From: Candidatus Mediterraneibacter surreyensis
Lineage (GTDB): Bacteria; Bacillota; Clostridia; Lachnospirales; Lachnospiraceae
Reading direction: 5' to 3'
NCBI GenBank assembly: GCA_019118885.1
Contig: DWYB01000026.1
Location: forward strand, 23,387 to 87,386
Length of the DNA stretch: 64,000 nt
A program made the translations under genes and the position numbers. Positions 36,082-52,817 of the stretch are shown one piece after another. Each line of letters opens with the position of its first letter. The first letter of the stretch is position 1. Below the pieces are notes generated by a model. It did no database searches. It was not told the origin of the DNA and saw nothing but the letters and a program-made list of their open reading frames with translations.

Positions 36082-36096
36082 GGGAGGGCAGTGAGA

Positions 36097-37839
36097 ATGG
36101 AAAATGTGAATTTAAAGATAAACGGCCTGAATGTAACTGCGCCCGCAGGTTCTACGATCCTTGAGGCGGCACAGGCGGCGGGCATCCGTATCCCTACGCT
36201 GTGCTATTTAAAAGAGATCAATGAGATCGGCGCATGCCGTATGTGTGTGGTGGAAGTAAAAGGGGCGAGAAATCTGGTGGCGGCATGCGTCTACCCGGTG
36301 TCCGAGGGCATGGAAGTGCTGACCAATACGAAGAAACTGCTGGAATCCAGAAGGAGAACGCTGGAACTTCTCCTGTCCAACCACGATAAGAAATGTCTCT
36401 CCTGCGTGCGCAGCGGTCACTGTGAACTACAGGAACTCTGCCAGGAGCTGGGCGTGACGGACGAGGATTATTTCGCAGGCGAATCGCCTCATTATGAACT
36501 GGATGAGAGTGCGGTACATATGGTACGGGATAATAATAAATGTATCCTCTGCCGGAGATGTTCGGCCGTATGTGAGAAAGTACAGAGCGTCGGCGTTATC
36601 GGGCCCAACAACAGAGGGTTTGCAACATTTATCGGATCGCCATTTGATATGGGGCTGGGTGATACGAGCTGCGTATCCTGCGGCCAGTGCATTGCCGCCT
36701 GTCCTACCGGCGCCCTTTATGAGAAGAGCAATATTGACGACGTCCTCGAAGCGATTGCCGACGAGACGAAGCATGTGGTCGTTCAGCCCGCTCCGTCCGT
36801 GCGCGCGGCGCTGGGCGAAGAGTTCGGCTATCCCATGGGAACAGATGTGGAAGGAAAGATGGCTGCGGCGCTTAGAAGGATCGGATTTGATAAAGTGTTC
36901 GATACGGATTTCAGCGCTGACCTTACAATTATGGAAGAGGCGCATGAGTTCCTTGACCGTGTAAGAAACGGGGGCGTCCTGCCGATGATGACGTCCTGCT
37001 CGCCGGGATGGATCAAATACTGCGAGCACTATTATCCGGATCAGCTGGCGCATCTGTCCAGCTGCAAGTCGCCCCAGCAGATGTTTGGTGCAATTACCAA
37101 GACATATTACGCTGAAAAGATGGGAATCGCTCCGGAAGATATCGTCTGCGTCAGCGTGATGCCGTGTACGGCAAAGAAATTCGAGATCCGGAGAGACGAC
37201 CAGTATGCGGCGGGAGTGCCGGATGTGGATATCTCTATCACCACAAGAGAACTGGCGCGTCTGATCCGTAAAGTGGGGATTGATTTCCGCAGCCTGCCGG
37301 ATGAAGCATTTGACGATCCTCTCGGTGAATCCTCAGGCGCCGGCGTTATCTTCGGAGCTACCGGCGGAGTGATGGAAGCGGCGCTTCGAACCGCTGTGGA
37401 AGAACTGACCGGAGAAACGCTGGACAAAGTCGAGTTCATGGAAGTCCGTGGAACAGACGGAATCAAAGAGGCGACTTACCATGTAGCCGGAATGGACGTA
37501 AAAGTGGCGGTTGCTTCCGGACTTTCCAATGCAAAGATCATCATGGATAAAGTGCGTTCCGGCGAGGCGGACTATCATTTCATCGAGATCATGTGCTGCC
37601 CGGGCGGATGCGTAAACGGCGGCGGACAGCCTCAGGTGCATGCAGACGTGCGCAACTTCACGGACGTGAAAGCAATCCGCGCGAAAGCCCTCTACGATAA
37701 CGACGCGGCAAAGACGATCCGAAAATCCCATGAAAACTCGTCCATCAAGAAAGTATATCACGAGTATCTGGGAGCACCGGGGAGCGAGAAGGCACATCAT
37801 ATACTGCATACAACCTATGTAAAACGTACCATTAATTAA
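36097..37839 (+). CDS. hndD: [FeFe] hydrogenase catalytic subunit (HydA/HndD)
   Basis: 580 residues. N-terminal [2Fe-2S] (Cys36, Cys47, Cys50), His-Cys3 [4Fe-4S] (CLSCVRSGHCELQ), 2x[4Fe-4S] (CILCRRCSAVC, CVSCGQCIAAC), then the H-cluster domain with TSCSPGW (near 300), MPCTAKKFE and EIMCCPGGCVNGGGQP, and the C-terminal small-subunit-like tail. Loop 1 has Ser where the textbook motif TSCCPxW has its second Cys; I believe this occurs in multimeric enzymes but cannot check. The ATG at 36097 follows AGGGAGGG. It is the catalytic partner of hndA-C, making or using H2. Confidence 0.95.
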   Translation: MENVNLKINGLNVTAPAGSTILEAAQAAGIRIPTLCYLKEINEIGACRMCVVEVKGARNLVAACVYPVSEGMEVLTNTKKLLESRRRTLELLLSNHDKKCLSCVRSGHCELQELCQELGVTDEDYFAGESPHYELDESAVHMVRDNNKCILCRRCSAVCEKVQSVGVIGPNNRGFATFIGSPFDMGLGDTSCVSCGQCIAACPTGALYEKSNIDDVLEAIADETKHVVVQPAPSVRAALGEEFGYPMGTDVEGKMAAALRRIGFDKVFDTDFSADLTIMEEAHEFLDRVRNGGVLPMMTSCSPGWIKYCEHYYPDQLAHLSSCKSPQQMFGAITKTYYAEKMGIAPEDIVCVSVMPCTAKKFEIRRDDQYAAGVPDVDISITTRELARLIRKVGIDFRSLPDEAFDDPLGESSGAGVIFGATGGVMEAALRTAVEELTGETLDKVEFMEVRGTDGIKEATYHVAGMDVKVAVASGLSNAKIIMDKVRSGEADYHFIEIMCCPGGCVNGGGQPQVHADVRNFTDVKAIRAKALYDNDAAKTIRKSHENSSIKKVYHEYLGAPGSEKAHHILHTTYVKRTIN

Positions 37840-38524
37840 ATTCGTGTTTGTTCCAGCAATCATATGATGTTTCGAATAAAAAATATCAGATAGAGAAGCT
37901 GACGCAGAAAAAAGGGGAACTGCATCGCCATGCCGGCCCGCTTTACCTCAAAGATTTGAATGGGTGTAACGGCGAAAGGAAATGCGCGTCCATTGGAACT
38001 TGCATTTCCTTTCACCTAACATCCAGAACAAATGCTTTTCGGAACGCTCCTGCCTTAATGCATGGCTCACGCAGTTCCCCTTTTTTCTGCTGTTTCATCC
38101 AATCTGTTCGTTTTTCTGTCCGGTCATCACGAAGATTCCTGAACAAATACTCATAGAAACGGGAAGAGAGTGGAACGTTTTCGATAAAGCGCCCTTTTCT
38201 TCCCGTTTTTATGAATGTTTGTTTATAGGATACGCTGCGAGTAATCGGAAAATCTGCCATCTGATGCGCCAGCTGTGAGAAGCGGATACTGTATAAGCCA
38301 TGCATTAAGGCAGGAGCGTTCCGAATACACCTGGTTCTCCCTGTTAGAAAAAGCAAATGCAAGTTCCAATGGACGAGCATTTGCTTTTTCGTTACAGGGA
38401 TTCCAGGGGACGAGGAGAAGCGGGCCGGCATGGCGCTACAGTATCCGTTTCTTACGGCGTCCGTAATTCAGATCAGATCCCTTTTCTGTTTTCTGCAGAG
38501 TAATCTATATAACAAACACAAATT
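37839..38524. repeat. Structured repeat element A (inverted relative to B)
   Basis: A 686-bp non-coding element between two convergent stop codons. Ends are AATTCGTGTTTGTT and AACAAACACAAATT (terminal inverted repeats). Hairpins: GAAAGGAAATGC/GCATTTCCTTTC (37974-37985, 38002-38013), GAAAAAGCAAATGC/GCATTTGCTTTTTC (38347-38360, 38377-38390), and a central 26-bp imperfect stem (38142-38167, 38198-38223). The 16-nt loops of the first two are complementary at 15 of 16 positions. The sequence matches the reverse complement of element B. Apparent small ORFs are read through these hairpins and I do not call them genes. Confidence 0.9.
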
Positions 38525-38526
38525 AA

Positions 38527-40626
38527 CTACTCAAACACATTCCCATAGAATTCCCCGTTCTTATACTGAACCTCTATATAATCCTCCTGAGATTTCCCGT
38601 CATCGAGGATTCCGCCTGAATACGGGCGGAAGTGTTCCAGAAGAAGAGTGATATCTTCCTGAGCCGTGACGGAGATCGTTATCTCTGAATCATAGAAGAG
38701 TAAATCTGCCGTATCAGAGAGTTGAGAGATCAAATTACTGAACTTGCCGCTCTTAACAGAATCATTGTAGAGGTAGACTGTGACGCCGGACACATCTTCA
38801 GGGTCAACACGGCTGCGCAGCGTATATCCGTAATCCTCCAGCAGTGCAAGCGTATTCGTATATTCCGGATACAGGTATAATTGCGATACATTGATTGGAA
38901 AACCGTCACTGAAATAGGAGTTCCCGGTGTTGTATGAAGGGCCGGTCTTATCTATAGTCTGTTCAGTCTGTTCCGGGTCAGGTATTTGAACAGAGAGTTC
39001 ACCTATGGGAACAGAGTTTATGAGCGTATCGGCGCTGACATTCAGGATATCTTTTTCATATGCTTCCAGAAGGGCGTTCCGCTGCTCTTTATCCAGTTTC
39101 ATTTGATCCGGTATACCATAGATATCGGACAGAGCGATGGATATTACGGAGTTTTTATCAAGGTGGAAGTAAGGAAAGAGCTCTTTTCTGTAGTTCTGAT
39201 TATCCAGCACCTCTTCCAACGCGGCGGCAGCGTCTTCATATCTGACAGGATACTGCCTCGATACAACCCGTCCGCCTGAGATTTTATAACGGAATAATGC
39301 GTTAATATAATCTGGGTTATCCTGTGCATCGATACCGTTTTCCAGATTTTCGATTCCGGAGCGTGCCAGAGTATAGAGGACATCTGTCTCTTCTTTGGGA
39401 GCAAAATATCCAAGCTCGGATTCGAAAGGATATTCAAGATCCGGATAACTAAAATAGTAGCTGAAGGAATCCGGCCGGAAACAGATGGCTTCCACCTTAT
39501 CTTCGTTCGGTATATAGGTATCATAACCGAGAAGATCAAACCGGAAGATACACAGAACCGCCATGACGCCGGCAACCGCTATAAGGGAGGATTTCCAGCC
39601 TCTGAGGAGCTGTTTCAGATCCAGGGTATATATGAATTCGATCACAGCGCAGAGGATGACAGCTGCCAGGAGACTCAGGAGAAAGATCCATCCGGTACCG
39701 TCGAGCAGCATGAGCTTCTGGACCGCAAGGCTGACAAACAGTGCGGTCGGGATGCAGATCAGTACTTTCAGCACAGGAGCAACAGCAGGAAATGCAATGG
39801 AATTCCCTGCAGCCTCTGACGGGTAAATCCGGTAGAGGAGTACCGCACATATGATAAGCAGAGCGGATATAAGTATCGCCGCGGCAGCCGGACCGACATG
39901 GAGGCTGCCGGTGGCCCCCTCTGTGATCAGGGAACTGAACAATTCATAAGGAGAAAGGTAACTGGCAAGTTTCTGAGGCAGTGTGGAGCTCAGATCATAG
40001 CTGTAGTAACTCTTGAAAAAGGCCAGTTCCAGCGAAGAAGCCAGGGCAAATATCATGGTGGGATATACAATTACCGCCAGCGCTGCCAACAGTCCGGTGA
40101 CAGTCCTTCCCGTTACCATAACGGCGAAGACAGAAGCATTATAAATGACAAAAAACGCCAGGATGCCGCCAAGGGCGGCTACAGCAGAATATTGTACAAG
40201 CCGGGCGGTCATAAGTCCGTTTACCGCGCCTGCTATTATAGTCAGTATACTGCAGATCATATATGGAACAAGAAAGATGATCAGTCCGGACAGGTAGGTT
40301 GTGGCAAACCATGTTGTGCGTTTCACAGGAAGAGAGTGGAAAAAGTCCAGCCTCTCTCTGGAGTGGATATAGCCGAAACCGGTCAGGGCGGTAAGAACGG
40401 CTAACACTGCAATCGCCCCGGCAAGAGAGCGCAGGTTATTCCCGTTTATTAGACCGGGAAAATAAGCGATAAGGTCTGATGCAGAATCTGTGTATGTACT
40501 TAGAAAGAGCATTGTATAAACAGGCATAGCCAGAAAGAGAACAATGCTTGTCAATGCGAGAAGCCATCCTCTGTGTTTGATGTCCGCACGAATTAGTTTA
40601 ATGTAAGAAATAGTCTTTGACGTCAT
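38527..40626 (-). CDS. ABC transporter membrane protein with large extracytoplasmic domain
   Basis: 699 residues. Helices in the N-terminal half (LLALTSIVLFLAMPVYTMLF; LAGAIAVLAVLTALTGFGYI) form an ABC-2-like permease including SRERLDFFHSLPVKR. After about residue 355 a soluble, acidic domain of 340 residues follows. The same architecture occurs in the paralogue at 55876-57897. The ATG at 40626 follows GGAGGTGG; an upstream in-frame start has no ribosome site. It overlaps the ATPase gene by 29 bp. Probably an exporter or antibiotic-response transporter of YtrCD-like kind (inferred). Confidence 0.85.
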   Translation of the reverse strand: MTSKTISYIKLIRADIKHRGWLLALTSIVLFLAMPVYTMLFLSTYTDSASDLIAYFPGLINGNNLRSLAGAIAVLAVLTALTGFGYIHSRERLDFFHSLPVKRTTWFATTYLSGLIIFLVPYMICSILTIIAGAVNGLMTARLVQYSAVAALGGILAFFVIYNASVFAVMVTGRTVTGLLAALAVIVYPTMIFALASSLELAFFKSYYSYDLSSTLPQKLASYLSPYELFSSLITEGATGSLHVGPAAAAILISALLIICAVLLYRIYPSEAAGNSIAFPAVAPVLKVLICIPTALFVSLAVQKLMLLDGTGWIFLLSLLAAVILCAVIEFIYTLDLKQLLRGWKSSLIAVAGVMAVLCIFRFDLLGYDTYIPNEDKVEAICFRPDSFSYYFSYPDLEYPFESELGYFAPKEETDVLYTLARSGIENLENGIDAQDNPDYINALFRYKISGGRVVSRQYPVRYEDAAAALEEVLDNQNYRKELFPYFHLDKNSVISIALSDIYGIPDQMKLDKEQRNALLEAYEKDILNVSADTLINSVPIGELSVQIPDPEQTEQTIDKTGPSYNTGNSYFSDGFPINVSQLYLYPEYTNTLALLEDYGYTLRSRVDPEDVSGVTVYLYNDSVKSGKFSNLISQLSDTADLLFYDSEITISVTAQEDITLLLEHFRPYSGGILDDGKSQEDYIEVQYKNGEFYGNVFE

Positions 40627-41503
40627 AACCGGCCACCTCCGTTTCACTGATAAATATTTCTTCGAGAGTAAGGGGCAGAACCTCGATAAACAGAGGGTTC
40701 TGCGCTTCTGCAATGCGCAGGACTTCCGAGCGCTCTCCACGGACTGTGAGAGTCAGCAAAGATCCGGTGCGTTCCAGCTTAACGACGCGCAGGTTCCTTA
40801 AAAGTTCCTGCTCGCGGTGAGCATCCTGGATCACACATTGAAGTTTACAGATATTACATTTGATCTGGTCAAGGTCCTGTGTGAGCAGCAGCTTTCCCTG
40901 ATGGAGAAGCCCCACATTGTCGCAGATGTCTTCCAGTTCCCTGAGATTGTGGGAAGAGATCACGGGGGTAAAATCCCGGTTCATGATCTCGGCGGCAAAC
41001 AGGCTTTTGACCGCCTGGCGCACTACAGGGTCAAGTCCGTCAAATGTCTCATCGCACAACAGATATTTCGTACCGGCGCACAGACCAAGAAGGATTGACA
41101 CCTGTTTTTTCATACCTTTTGAGAAAGCGTTGATTCTGCGGTTGGTATCCAGATTAAAGATTTTGGTCAGAGAATCGAATTGCTTTGTGTTAAAGGCCGG
41201 GTAGACTGTCATATAGTAATCCCTCATTTCTTTCAGGTCTGCATTCTGAAAAAAGTAGGGAGAGTCAGATAAGAAACAAATCTGGGATTTTATATCCGGG
41301 TTTTCGAATACCGGGTCTCCATCTACAAGGAGTTCTCCGCTGTCAGGACGGATAATCCCGCTGATCATGCGAAGCAGTGTGCTTTTCCCCGCACCGTTTG
41401 ATCCGATCAGACCGAATACCATACCCTCGCGAATCGTGCCGGTTACATGATCTACAGCGTGTATATTGTGAAATGTCTTGTCAAGGTCTTTCAGTTCGAT
41501 CAT
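40598..41503 (-). CDS. ABC transporter ATPase, YtrB-like
   Basis: 301 residues. Walker A GSNGAGKST near residues 34-42, a signature degenerated to FSKGMKKQVSILLGL, and Walker B YLLCDETFDGLDP. It has a C-terminal extension of about 90 residues. It forms a transporter with the membrane protein that follows; the GntR regulator precedes it with ATGA overlap. The sequence is close to the ATPase at 54966-55901, indicating an old duplication. Confidence 0.92.
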   Translation of the reverse strand: MIELKDLDKTFHNIHAVDHVTGTIREGMVFGLIGSNGAGKSTLLRMISGIIRPDSGELLVDGDPVFENPDIKSQICFLSDSPYFFQNADLKEMRDYYMTVYPAFNTKQFDSLTKIFNLDTNRRINAFSKGMKKQVSILLGLCAGTKYLLCDETFDGLDPVVRQAVKSLFAAEIMNRDFTPVISSHNLRELEDICDNVGLLHQGKLLLTQDLDQIKCNICKLQCVIQDAHREQELLRNLRVVKLERTGSLLTLTVRGERSEVLRIAEAQNPLFIEVLPLTLEEIFISETEVAGYDVKDYFLH

Positions 41504-50237: not shown

Positions 50238-51413
50238 ATGAGCGTGAGTATCGATGTGGCGTGGAAGAGCCTGAATAAACACCAGGAGGAACTCTGCGGA
50301 GACAAGGTGGAAGTGCTGAAGACGGAAGATTCTGATATCGTGATCCTGGCGGACGGAATGGGGAGCGGTGTCAAGGCGAATATACTGGCTACATTGACGT
50401 CCAAGATTCTCGGAACCATGCTGAACGAAGGGGCGCAGATCGAGTCATGCGTTGAGACAATCGCAAAGACACTTCCCATATGTAAGGAACGTAAAGTGGC
50501 TTATGCTACATTTTCCATCCTGCAGATCTTTCATAATGGAAAAGCATATCTGGTGGAATTCGACAATCCGTCCTGTGTGTTCATCCGTGACGGCCAAATC
50601 GTGGATTATCCCTATGAAGTTCGGGAGATCAGCGGAAAAAAAATCCACGAATACAGATTTGCGGTAAAAAAGAACGACTGTTTTGTCCTGATGAGCGACG
50701 GAGTTATTTATGCAGGCGCGGGCTCCATTCTGAATCTTCAGGGATGGACATGGGAAGCCATGGCAGAATATACATTGAAATGCACGAAGAAAACATTGTC
50801 TGCATCCAGGCTTGCCGTCATGCTCAGCCAGGCATGTGAGGAACTCTACGAGGATAAGCCGGGAGATGATACTACGGTTGCGGTGGCACGGGTCATTGAG
50901 CGGCGTGTAGTCAATATATTTACCGGTCCGCCGAAAAACAAAGAGGACGATGAACTCCTGATGCATGAGTTTATGAATGCCGAAGGGAAAAAAGTAGTGG
51001 CGGGGGGAACAAGCGCCAATATCGCTGCGCGCATACTTGGGCGGGAGATCACAACGAAAGTGGACAGTCGCAATCCGGATGTGCCGCCTATGGCCGAGAT
51101 CGAGGGAATCGATCTCGTAACAGAGGGAGTCCTGACCCTGAGCAGGAGCCTGAAACTTCTGAAAAAATACCTCAGTGATGAGTTCGATGCCGAATTCTTT
51201 GACGAACTGGACGCGAACAATGGAGCATCCCGGCTCGCCAAGCTTCTTATAGAGGAGTGCACAGAACTGAATCTTTTCGTAGGAACAGCGGTCAACGAGG
51301 CTCATAAAGAATCCGGGCTGAACTTTGACCTGAGCATGAGACAGAACCTGGTGGATCAACTGATCCGGACGGCAGAAGAGATGGGGAAACATGTGAGGGT
51401 GAAGTACTATTGA
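50238..51413 (+). CDS. SpoIIE/PP2C-type serine phosphatase
   Basis: 391 residues. The first 225 form a PP2C-like phosphatase: VILADGMGSGVKAN (metal Asp), VLMSDGVIYAGAGS and DKPGDDTTVAVARV. The last 160 residues are an extra helical domain with no family I recognise. Tight coupling to the PAS hydrogenase implies that the hydrogenase controls its activity. A substrate would be a Ser-phosphorylated anti-anti-sigma-type protein, none seen here. GAGGAGGAC precedes the ATG. Confidence 0.9.
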   Translation: MSVSIDVAWKSLNKHQEELCGDKVEVLKTEDSDIVILADGMGSGVKANILATLTSKILGTMLNEGAQIESCVETIAKTLPICKERKVAYATFSILQIFHNGKAYLVEFDNPSCVFIRDGQIVDYPYEVREISGKKIHEYRFAVKKNDCFVLMSDGVIYAGAGSILNLQGWTWEAMAEYTLKCTKKTLSASRLAVMLSQACEELYEDKPGDDTTVAVARVIERRVVNIFTGPPKNKEDDELLMHEFMNAEGKKVVAGGTSANIAARILGREITTKVDSRNPDVPPMAEIEGIDLVTEGVLTLSRSLKLLKKYLSDEFDAEFFDELDANNGASRLAKLLIEECTELNLFVGTAVNEAHKESGLNFDLSMRQNLVDQLIRTAEEMGKHVRVKYY

Positions 51414-51994
51414 AATTCGTGTTTGTTGTATAAATTACTCTGTAAAAAGCAGAACAGTGCTGATCTGAATTGCGGACGCTGTGAGAAGCGGTTACTGTAA
51501 CGCCATGCCGGCCCGTTTCTCCTCATCCCCTGGAATCCCTGTAACGAAAAAGCAAATGCTCGTCCATTGGAACTTGCATTTGCTTTTTCTAACCTGCAGT
51601 GTATCTTATCAACAAACATTCGTAAAAACGGGAAGAAATGGTGGCTTTATCGAGAAAGTTCCACTCTCGTCCTGTTTTTATAAGTGTTTGTTCAGAAATC
51701 TTTGTGGTGACCGGACGAAAAACGATCAGACTGGATGAGGCAGCAGAAAAAAGGAAAACTGCGTGAGCCATGCATCAAGGCAGGAGCGTTCCGAAAAGCA
51801 TTTGTTCTGGATGTTAGGTGAAAGGAAATGCAAGTTCCAATGGACGAGCATTTCCTTTCGCCGTTACATCCATTCAAATCTTTGAGGAGAAGCGGGCCGG
51901 CATGGCGATGCAGTTTCCCTTTTTTCTGCGTCAGCTTATCTATTTGATATTTTTTATTCGAAATATCATATGATCTCTGGAACAAACACGAATT
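51414..51994. repeat. Structured repeat element B
   Basis: 581 bp between convergent stops, a relative of element A in inverse orientation. Termini AATTCGTGTTTGTT and AACAAACACGAATT. Hairpins: GAAAAAGCAAATGC/GCATTTGCTTTTTC (51546-51559, 51576-51589) and GAAAGGAAATGC/GCATTTCCTTTC (51820-51831, 51848-51859); their 16-nt loops (51560-51575, 51832-51847) are perfectly complementary. A central imperfect stem is at 51611-51633/51670-51692. B is about 105 bp shorter than A. The right terminus supplies bases of the deacetylase stop codon. Confidence 0.9.
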
Positions 51995-52817
51995 ACCTTA
52001 CAAGCTCCCCCAAAGGCCGTACCTGATACCCCATTTCCTCCCATTTTGTGAGCAGCTCATCCAGAATAGCAGCGTTTGTCGAGGAGGTGCTGTGGAGGAG
52101 TACGATGGCTCCGGGATGGATCCGGCCAAGGAGTTTGTCGAAGGCTTCTTCTTTTGTTGGCTGGTCGTCCGTATACCAGTCTACATATGCCAGACTCCAG
52201 AAGAATGTCTTATATCCCAGATCTTTTGCCATCTGGAGATTGGCTTCGTTATATTTTCCCTGGGGTGGGCGGTAGTATTTGGTCATTTCCTGTCCGGTTA
52301 TATCACGGAAAGCATCTTCTACTGTTACCATTTCTTCTTTAAAAGATTCCATGTCCGCTATCTGTGACATATCGGGGTGGTGCCATGTATGGTTTCCTAC
52401 GACGTGCCCTTCTTCCGTCATTCTGCGGACCAGTTCCGGTTCTGATTCAATATAGGTTCCGACGACGAAAAATGTGGCCGATACATTATGCTTCTTCAGG
52501 GCATCCAGTATGGCGGCGGTATTTCCGTTTTCATATCCTGCGTCGAATGTAAGATAAATGACCTTTTCATCGGTATCCTGGGCATAGTAAGCGTCATATT
52601 GAGCCAGCTCTTCCATAGAGGCGTTGCCTGTGGGCGTTTGCCCCTCCTCCTGGAAACTCAGTCCCCAGTTCCCTTCTTCTGATGCAAAAACAGTTTCTGA
52701 CAGGAAAGCGGCTCCGGTTCCTATCAGGTATGCGCCGGTAAAAAGCAGTACAAAAGAAAGGAACTTGATTATCAGAGATTTGTTCATAAGCAGTGCGTAC
52801 AATGAGGTTTTTGACAT
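51993..52817 (-). CDS. Polysaccharide deacetylase (NodB/PdaA-like)
   Basis: 274 residues. An N-terminal membrane helix (LIIKFLSFVLLFTGAYLIGT) anchors a NodB domain facing outward. Motif 1 YLTFDAGYENGNT has the catalytic Asp but Ala where many have Asp; HTWHHPD supplies the metal histidines; RPPQGKYN and LLHS complete the set. This resembles PdaA-type peptidoglycan deacetylases. No strong ribosome site precedes ATG 52817; an internal ATG at 52787 is an alternative. The final TAA lies in the end of element B. Confidence 0.88.
   Translation of the reverse strand: MSKTSLYALLMNKSLIIKFLSFVLLFTGAYLIGTGAAFLSETVFASEEGNWGLSFQEEGQTPTGNASMEELAQYDAYYAQDTDEKVIYLTFDAGYENGNTAAILDALKKHNVSATFFVVGTYIESEPELVRRMTEEGHVVGNHTWHHPDMSQIADMESFKEEMVTVEDAFRDITGQEMTKYYRPPQGKYNEANLQMAKDLGYKTFFWSLAYVDWYTDDQPTKEEAFDKLLGRIHPGAIVLLHSTSSTNAAILDELLTKWEEMGYQVRPLGELVR

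Follow-up and report, generated by a model that had tools for sequence, protein, structure and literature searches.

Element A is a palindrome of 686 bp at positions 37839-38524 of a 64,000-nucleotide stretch of the genome of Candidatus Mediterraneibacter surreyensis (contig DWYB01000026.1; the whole stretch is hereafter called the window), and is located between two convergent genes. It contains two structured modules, in each of which the outward strand folds; the structure is under selection, the element is present in many copies, and the copies are frequently situated between convergent stop codons. The interpretation that we prefer, to which we give an about even chance, is that element A represents one copy of a non-autonomous repeat, similar to miniature inverted-repeat transposable elements (MITEs) and to REPINs (inverted doublets of repetitive extragenic palindromic, or REP, units), whose modules serve as a 3' boundary common to both convergent transcripts.

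Long inverted arms were detected in element A (60 nt at 80%, 64 nt at 72% and 38 nt at 92%), and the predicted RNA fold reached -319.1 kcal/mol against a mean of -187.3 for shuffled sequences (z = -19, 20 shuffles). Both the arms and the fold energy are far beyond chance. By inverted-repeat comparison, terminal inverted repeats (TIRs) of 14 bp, 93% complementary to each other, were identified at the two ends, AATTCGTGTTTGTT on the plus strand at 37839-37852 and AATTTGTGTTTGTT, as read on the minus strand, at 38511-38524. Between these ends, a single folding module of about 187 nt is present as an inverted pair around a centre hairpin at 38142-38223 (41-nt arms, 76% complementary, from the inverted-arm search). 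Module 1, of the L type, is located at 37904-38091 with the minus strand folded, and module 2, of the R type, at 38272-38457 with the plus strand folded, so that both folded strands point outward. The covariance model R1 gave 198.2 bits for module 1 and 182.5 bits for module 2 on these strands, and echoes of 43.2 bits (plus) and 34.3 bits (minus), respectively, on the opposite ones. The two hairpin stems, GAAAGGAAATGC and GAAAAAGCAAATGC, carry the apical 16-nt loops that were located by the inverted-arm search at 37986-38001 (minus strand) and 38361-38376 (plus strand).

Element B, a 581-bp relative at 51414-51994, is also flanked by convergent open reading frames (ORFs), at 50238-51413 (plus) and 51993-52817 (minus). 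One module of element B is complete (L type, 51742-51929, plus strand, R1 195 bits), and the other is truncated, the best-matching part being 51541-51593 on the minus strand (R1 partial match of 44.6 bits). An earlier note on this DNA had described A and B as sharing TIRs and one set of hairpins with mutually complementary 16-nt loops, and this description holds: the TIRs of B match without mismatch, and the loops are reverse complements at 15 of 16 positions in A and at 16 of 16 in B. The loops are complementary because they represent nearly the same sequence of one module on opposite strands. As to the proposed "nested, palindromic" organization, the palindrome stands and the nesting does not, B being a separate and partly deleted copy.

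The selection on structure suggested in the same note was supported by covariation analysis. Two alignments were made of modules hand-picked for diversity from 63 places among 43 loci, A1 with 28 modules in inward orientation and A2 with 27 modules in outward orientation. Standard pairs occupied 96.4% of the 1778 cells of A2, and 52 of its 67 pairs had changed on both sides. None of 500 shuffles reached any of five covariation measures, and when the partners were slid by 1-3 columns, only 40-50% of the cells still paired and double changes remained in 56-117 cells instead of 449. For A1, RNAalifold gave double changes in 36 of 48 pairs. When counted on a FastTree tree with parsimony ancestors, 83 double events from one Watson-Crick pair to another were found on 32 of 47 pairs; after the 3' partners had been re-dealt (300 trials), the mean was 3.3 and the maximum 12 events. 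These results altogether indicate that the structure of the module is under strong selection. The ORFs within element A are short and overlapping (63-139 aa only), and a protein-coding role of the element is made unlikely by indels of 1-3 nt within the modules together with the structure-preserving double changes.

The strand that folds was deduced from the pairs other than Watson-Crick. In inward orientation, 14 G.T cells were observed against 53 A.C cells (4:13 for the L type, 3:29 for the R type and 7:11 for two sequences of genome G027). Without the apical pair the ratio was 14:41, and the bias was reversed in only one of 10,000 bootstraps over pairs. As tree events, 10 G.T were counted against 33 A.C. 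This excess of A.C over G.T as read inward indicates that it is the outward strand that folds, in both modules. One very long foldback as the selected structure, which the earlier note had considered, is therefore not supported: the wobble asymmetry indicates that the modules fold separately, each on its own outward strand.

The module is a rod of about 187 nt, consisting of a fast-evolving closing helix, a conserved core and an apical hairpin. The core, common to other genera, was placed at 37938-38050 on the minus strand for module 1 (core model R2 match, converted from G000:C60:61324-61436; alignment A4) and at 38313-38423 on the plus strand for module 2 (converted from L001:1975-2085). Between covarying helices it holds tandem G.A/A.G positions that are invariant in all 21 aligned cores, and one U.G pair that is invariant in the same 21 cores as well as in all 27 sequences of A2. 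The apical loop has its own 4-bp stem (pairs 95-106 to 98-103 of the alignment), of which pair 97-104 covaries (U-G in 12, G-C in 6, U-A in 5 and C-G in 4 of the 27 modules). Since each 16-nt loop is thus closed on a stem of its own, the kissing loops once proposed are not needed.

The position of element A between its neighbours is precise. On the left, the gene for a hydA-like [FeFe]-hydrogenase large subunit (36091-37839, plus strand; Pfam Fe_hyd_lg_C, E = 5.8e-101) has its stop codon touching the element (+1 from the element end), and on the right, the convergent gene for a DUF6449 membrane protein (38527-40740, minus strand; Pfam DUF6449, E = 5.6e-18; ABC-permease-like by eye) stops 2 nt from it. 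Among the 15 elements of the same genome, an inbound frame of at least 100 codons stops at -6 to +2 nt for 24 of the 30 ends, and both ends abut inbound stops in 10 elements, so that no more than 7 nt lie beyond the element ends. In 304 kb of this genome (the window plus 12 hand-chosen stretches, genes being called by codon score), 20 of 258 neighbouring gene pairs were convergent, and two of these hold elements A and B. The other 18 convergent spacers ranged from -13 to 234 nt, three of them being 10 nt or less; one, the 193-nt spacer L456, has an AATTCG-like start and may hold a small element. Downstream of 96 modules in named loci, a crude ORF caller gave a convergent ORF for 64 and none for 7.

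The spacer after hydA was compared among species. Of 58 genomes, 50 yielded the 3' end of hydA, and 30 loci were read. In 20 of the 30, an AAATTC-like end starts at the stop codon, as judged by pattern in 14 and by eye in six (L241, L248, L252, L256, L260 and L263), and leads, by eye, into palindromes of several different types. No intrinsic terminator was found within 170 nt in any of these 20 element-like spacers (L239, L240 and L243 end sooner), and the same scan detected one in six of the 10 other hydA spacers. From this contrast, the element occupies at this locus the place of the terminator of other species. In L242, L249, L258 and L261, hydA and a homologue of the same convergent gene are separated by a spacer of about 90-130 nt.

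The two modules are regularly paired in one sense. After opposite-strand echoes were set aside, all 23 two-module loci among 80 named loci showed the minus-then-plus, that is outward, arrangement (the second module of L178 being weak), with gaps between the paired modules from 37 nt (L178) to 1769 nt. We infer that the modules work as RNA at transcript 3' ends, in termination or protection, and that the element is mobilized in trans. The transcript of one flanking gene would cross the far module in the folding sense just before turning antisense to the convergent gene, and the transcript of the latter would likewise cross the opposite module. The module pair may then form a symmetric 3' boundary, by termination, 3'-end processing or protection, that replaces ordinary terminators. 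Copies would spread via an enzyme acting in trans and, once placed, would be kept and recombine with each other. If the modules act as RNA, they would form a novel class of 3'-end device between convergent genes and would explain how compact genomes avoid transcript run-on.

Several observations weigh against this interpretation. The stop-codon fit is incomplete in five elements of the same genome, at both ends of L059 and at one end of L003, L006, L009 and L060, and L059 follows an apparent ordinary terminator. For 25 of the 96 modules, the crude ORF caller gave a codirectional ORF downstream. In g59, another genus of the family, two single modules are apparently located among genes named by eye, one between grpE and dnaK on the opposite strand and the other between pgk and tpiA on the same strand; apparently inside operons, the module is therefore not an obligatory terminator there. 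No intrinsic terminator with a short G+C-rich stem and a T run was detected at 37800-38560 (mean of 0.9 in shuffles), and a single promoter-like site was found in the region of element A, at its right end and none in the centre (mean of 1.5 in shuffles). In addition, the G.T asymmetry would be equally expected if single-stranded DNA (ssDNA) folded instead of RNA. The elaborate terminator considered in the earlier note would agree with the position, where no canonical terminator is present, but less well with the two g59 copies that apparently reside inside operons. With a bidirectional intrinsic terminator, element A shares position, symmetry and the lack of any other recognizable terminator, but differs in having no short G+C stem with a T tract, in the conserved internal loops of its rod of about 187 nt, and in that some g59 copies apparently reside inside operons.

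The repeat is abundant within the genus. By blastn, 10 copies of at least 677 bp including element A itself, with 84-100% identity, were found in its own genome (90 contigs) together with many partial copies, and matches were obtained in 24 of 61 genomes, its own included, all 24 in the same genus. Exact pattern matches were found in at least 103 stretches; among the matches listed, most carried the name Mediterraneibacter (many metagenome-assembled genomes (MAGs) from chicken gut, M. catenae with the cultured isolate SW178, and M. glycyrrhizinilyticus with the cultured isolate An427), and others went under Lachnoclostridium, Ruminococcus ([Ruminococcus] faecis among them) or Lachnospiraceae. 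In the own genome, 31 hits of model R1 scored 168.5 bits or more; the 24 further hits were weaker and represent opposite-strand echoes, fragments or hybrids. Within the genus, 43 of 58 genomes matched R1 at E <= 1e-6 and 15 gave no match; the counts per genome, from 1 to at least 45 (the latter in G027), include opposite-strand echoes and are unsafe as copy numbers. In the larger searches, run with stricter filters that lose weak matches, R1 detected one other genus among 150 genomes of the family and added none when 246 genomes of the order were searched. Under the same filters, R2 matched five of 397 family genomes (that of element A, two of g59, one of g266 and one of g338) and, among 295 genomes of the order, that of element A only. 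The g59 and g266 loci that were read look like single palindromes, except that L089 of g59 is an inverted pair. The contigs of L239, L240, L241, L243, L245 and L254 stop about 80-220 nt into the post-hydA spacer, as would be expected of assemblies broken at repeats; copy numbers in MAGs may be underestimated.

No Rfam 15 family was matched at the gathering cut-off in the whole window or in seven related loci. A permissive scan of element A produced 11 hits, each to a eukaryotic family and far under its cut-off, the best being mir-3718 on the centre hairpin (34.6 bits, cut-off 78). A large and clear covariation signal in gut bacteria is thus matched by no family of this database at cut-off. The literature on structured repeats in Lachnospiraceae or Mediterraneibacter within one paper collection yielded no account of the repeat; a term search of the main text of PMC11109978 gave no occurrence of Ruminococcus, Blautia, Dorea, Lachno or palindrom. 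The MITE-like unit foreseen in the earlier note is supported by the blastn copies and R1 matches of a multi-copy repeat with TIRs, and what that note had set against its own proposal was not encountered: instead of only two copies, no covariation or a match to a known repeat, we found numerous copies and strong covariation, and no Rfam family was matched at its cut-off.

TIRs of 14 bp with at most one mismatch are present at both ends of 14 of the 15 own copies, and are degenerate in L060. Genome-wide, the TIR pattern gave 54 matches with up to two mismatches against 11 for a reversed control pattern. In the 14 copies with intact ends, no direct repeat of at least 4 nt was seen to flank the TIRs, although an AATT duplication could hide in the palindromic tips, unseen by this direct-repeat test. 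In nine stretches of TIR matches lacking an R1 module, which represent part of such matches in this 90-contig draft, no long ORF was found between paired same ends. Seven of the 15 own elements (L001, L003, L005, L006, L009, L058 and L059) share both flanks with one of 12 loci of a sister species, seven being a lower bound; these copies therefore probably predate the split. In the sister species, L212 joins the left flanks of own loci L008 and L010, which points to a rearrangement of the chromosome in which copies recombined, and at the hydA locus the other module comes first (by eye).

Some module pairs carry gene cargo, and other modules were found under the same ends. Wide module pairs enclose a CPBP-like gene, DUF2000 plus a CPBP-like gene, RelB/ParE plus DUF2000, or a surface-protein-like ORF named by eye; the CPBP-like protein scored 19.8 bits against a Pfam cut-off of 22.4, and the CPBP-like gene of L184 and DUF2000 of L208 were named by eye. 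Outward cargo genes are followed by a sense module in L184 and L208 (both sides) and in L081 (a single gene). The cargo pairs L081/L164, L184 and L208/L127 are apparently at one locus in related species, and L134 is a further cargo pair. A second element type of about 745 bp carries, between the same ends, one R1 module and a different palindromic module X. Over the 104 pairs common to both strand folds of module X (10 sequences, inward orientation), 14 G.T were observed against 49 A.C, indicating that module X also folds outward. Over all 117 pairs of a one-strand fold, which favours G.U by construction, the count was 54 G.T against 55 A.C. Module X was seen in L187, L050-L053 and L438-L441, with no Rfam match where scanned (L187). 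In total, at least four kinds of palindromic module were seen, and strand bias was tested for two of them, the L/R type and X. It is possible, though we hold it only tentatively, that exchangeable modules of structured RNA form a modular system in Mediterraneibacter; within common ends, they would fill the convergent spacer from stop to stop with one outward module for each gene, replace ordinary terminators as dedicated 3'-end devices and spread as selfish cassettes.

The main rival, which we consider unlikely but in need of serious attention, is that the modules are ssDNA hairpins at the two termini of a non-autonomous element, recognized by a transposase acting in trans on the strand with the outward 3' end and without any RNA role, like REPs and REPINs or the ends of IS200/IS605. 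The element is indeed a multi-copy, intergenic inverted doublet with TIRs, the outward strand bias is predicted equally well as noted above, and the cargo genes between two outward modules resemble a composite unit. However, no transposase was seen encoded in or adjacent to the element, and at least seven of the 15 own copies are orthologous in the sister species, so movement is not very frequent. Mobilization by a REP-associated tyrosine transposase (RAYT), for which the Y1_Tnp gene was the candidate, was rejected, since no R1 match was found in 15 RAYT-like loci and a different REP family was present in the seven loci of which the flanks were read. This RAYT-like Y1_Tnp gene (255-301 aa; L422-L436) occurs usually once per genome. 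It is flanked by inverted repeats in 14 of the 15 loci, the exception being L434, which encodes a different Y1_Tnp protein; in the seven loci read, the flanking REPs are of the GGGGACGTAGT..ACTACGTCCCC type. Y1_Tnp and its REPs represent a separate RAYT-REP system of the genus. If the modules act as ssDNA, they would be unusually large strand-specific structured transposon ends.

REPINs consist of two inverted hairpin units and are intergenic, non-autonomous and predicted to fold as ssDNA or mRNA (PMC3116915). Element A resembles them as an intergenic, multi-copy inverted doublet of hairpin units, but its covarying units of about 187 nt exceed the 20-40 bp of REPs (PMC3733652), one pair of ends can enclose modules of different families, and the RAYT-like gene of the genus is flanked by another repeat in the seven loci read. 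Prokaryotic MITEs (QMITE of Coxiella, Chunjie, BOX/RUP) have TIRs of 4-30 bp, are intergenic and multi-copy with stable predicted transcript folds, and QMITE2 is located mostly in 3' untranslated regions (PMC10969869). Likewise, element A has TIRs, intergenic location, many copies and a strong predicted fold. It differs in its length of 686 bp, against typically less than 500 bp, in the lack of a detected target duplication, in covariation that marks two separate strand-specific folds, and in the precise stop-to-stop fit of most own copies. The element thus resembles both REPINs and MITEs yet fails the tested feature of each, a cognate RAYT for the former and a target duplication for the latter.

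A trans-acting non-coding RNA is improbable in our estimation. The module would then be the body of a small RNA that starts from the centre of the element and binds a protein, with the copy number reflecting dosage or selfish spread. A core that is kept across the genus and in three g59 sequences, with R2 matches in two more genera, does resemble a binding site. Against this stand the lack of a promoter-like site in the centre of element A, the mere 37 nt between the modules of L178, and the distribution of tens of copies in some genomes with no match in 15 of 58, unlike a housekeeping RNA.

We regard as quite improbable that the outward modules are recognition sites for exchange of the enclosed content, in an attC-like role, and for inversion. 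Integron attC sites are strand-specific imperfect palindromes that follow genes and accompany variable cargo. Element A differs from attC in that the strand that folds is the one that codes for the preceding gene, and in that its sites form outward pairs. Exchange is suggested by three centres at one locus, CPBP-like in L081, DUF2000 plus CPBP-like in L184 and RelB/ParE plus DUF2000 in L208, and by a second locus with two centres, the surface-protein-like ORF in L134 and 166 bp in L055, flank orthology being judged by eye in both cases. Different palindromic types in one slot after hydA, and the swapped flanks (L212) and opposite module order at hydA in the sister species (by eye), agree with it as well. 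The swapped flanks are, however, explained by ordinary homologous recombination between copies of 84-91% identity.

A neutral, decaying foldback MITE whose double changes arose by template switching is highly improbable: palindromes of such size are prone to quasi-palindrome correction, but strand-symmetric mutation should not yield the 33:10 wobble bias, would tend to erase the invariant non-complementary residues of the core, and leaves the presence of this core in four genera unexplained.

Some further elements and matches were noted. L437:1274-2141 is an 868-bp element with the same ends and three other palindromic stretches, with both stop codons within 5 nt, and L057:1045-1277 is a 233-bp element with the same ends and a single GGTATGTATTG-type palindrome. 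An unannotated 4.9-kb record of 'Bacteriophage sp.' from human faeces (MT838801.1:17-143) matched query positions 56-183 at 72% (E = 3e-6). A phage or plasmid origin was rejected, with one weak match in the phage collection and none in plasmids; a 17-nt core sequence had no exact match in viral contigs, and a 15-nt pattern gave at least 120 stretches in a second viral scan. The 311-bp copy L049 (G000:C58:91470-91780), in which the halves are joined near both apical loops, looks like the product of slippage at the palindrome with loss of the interior.

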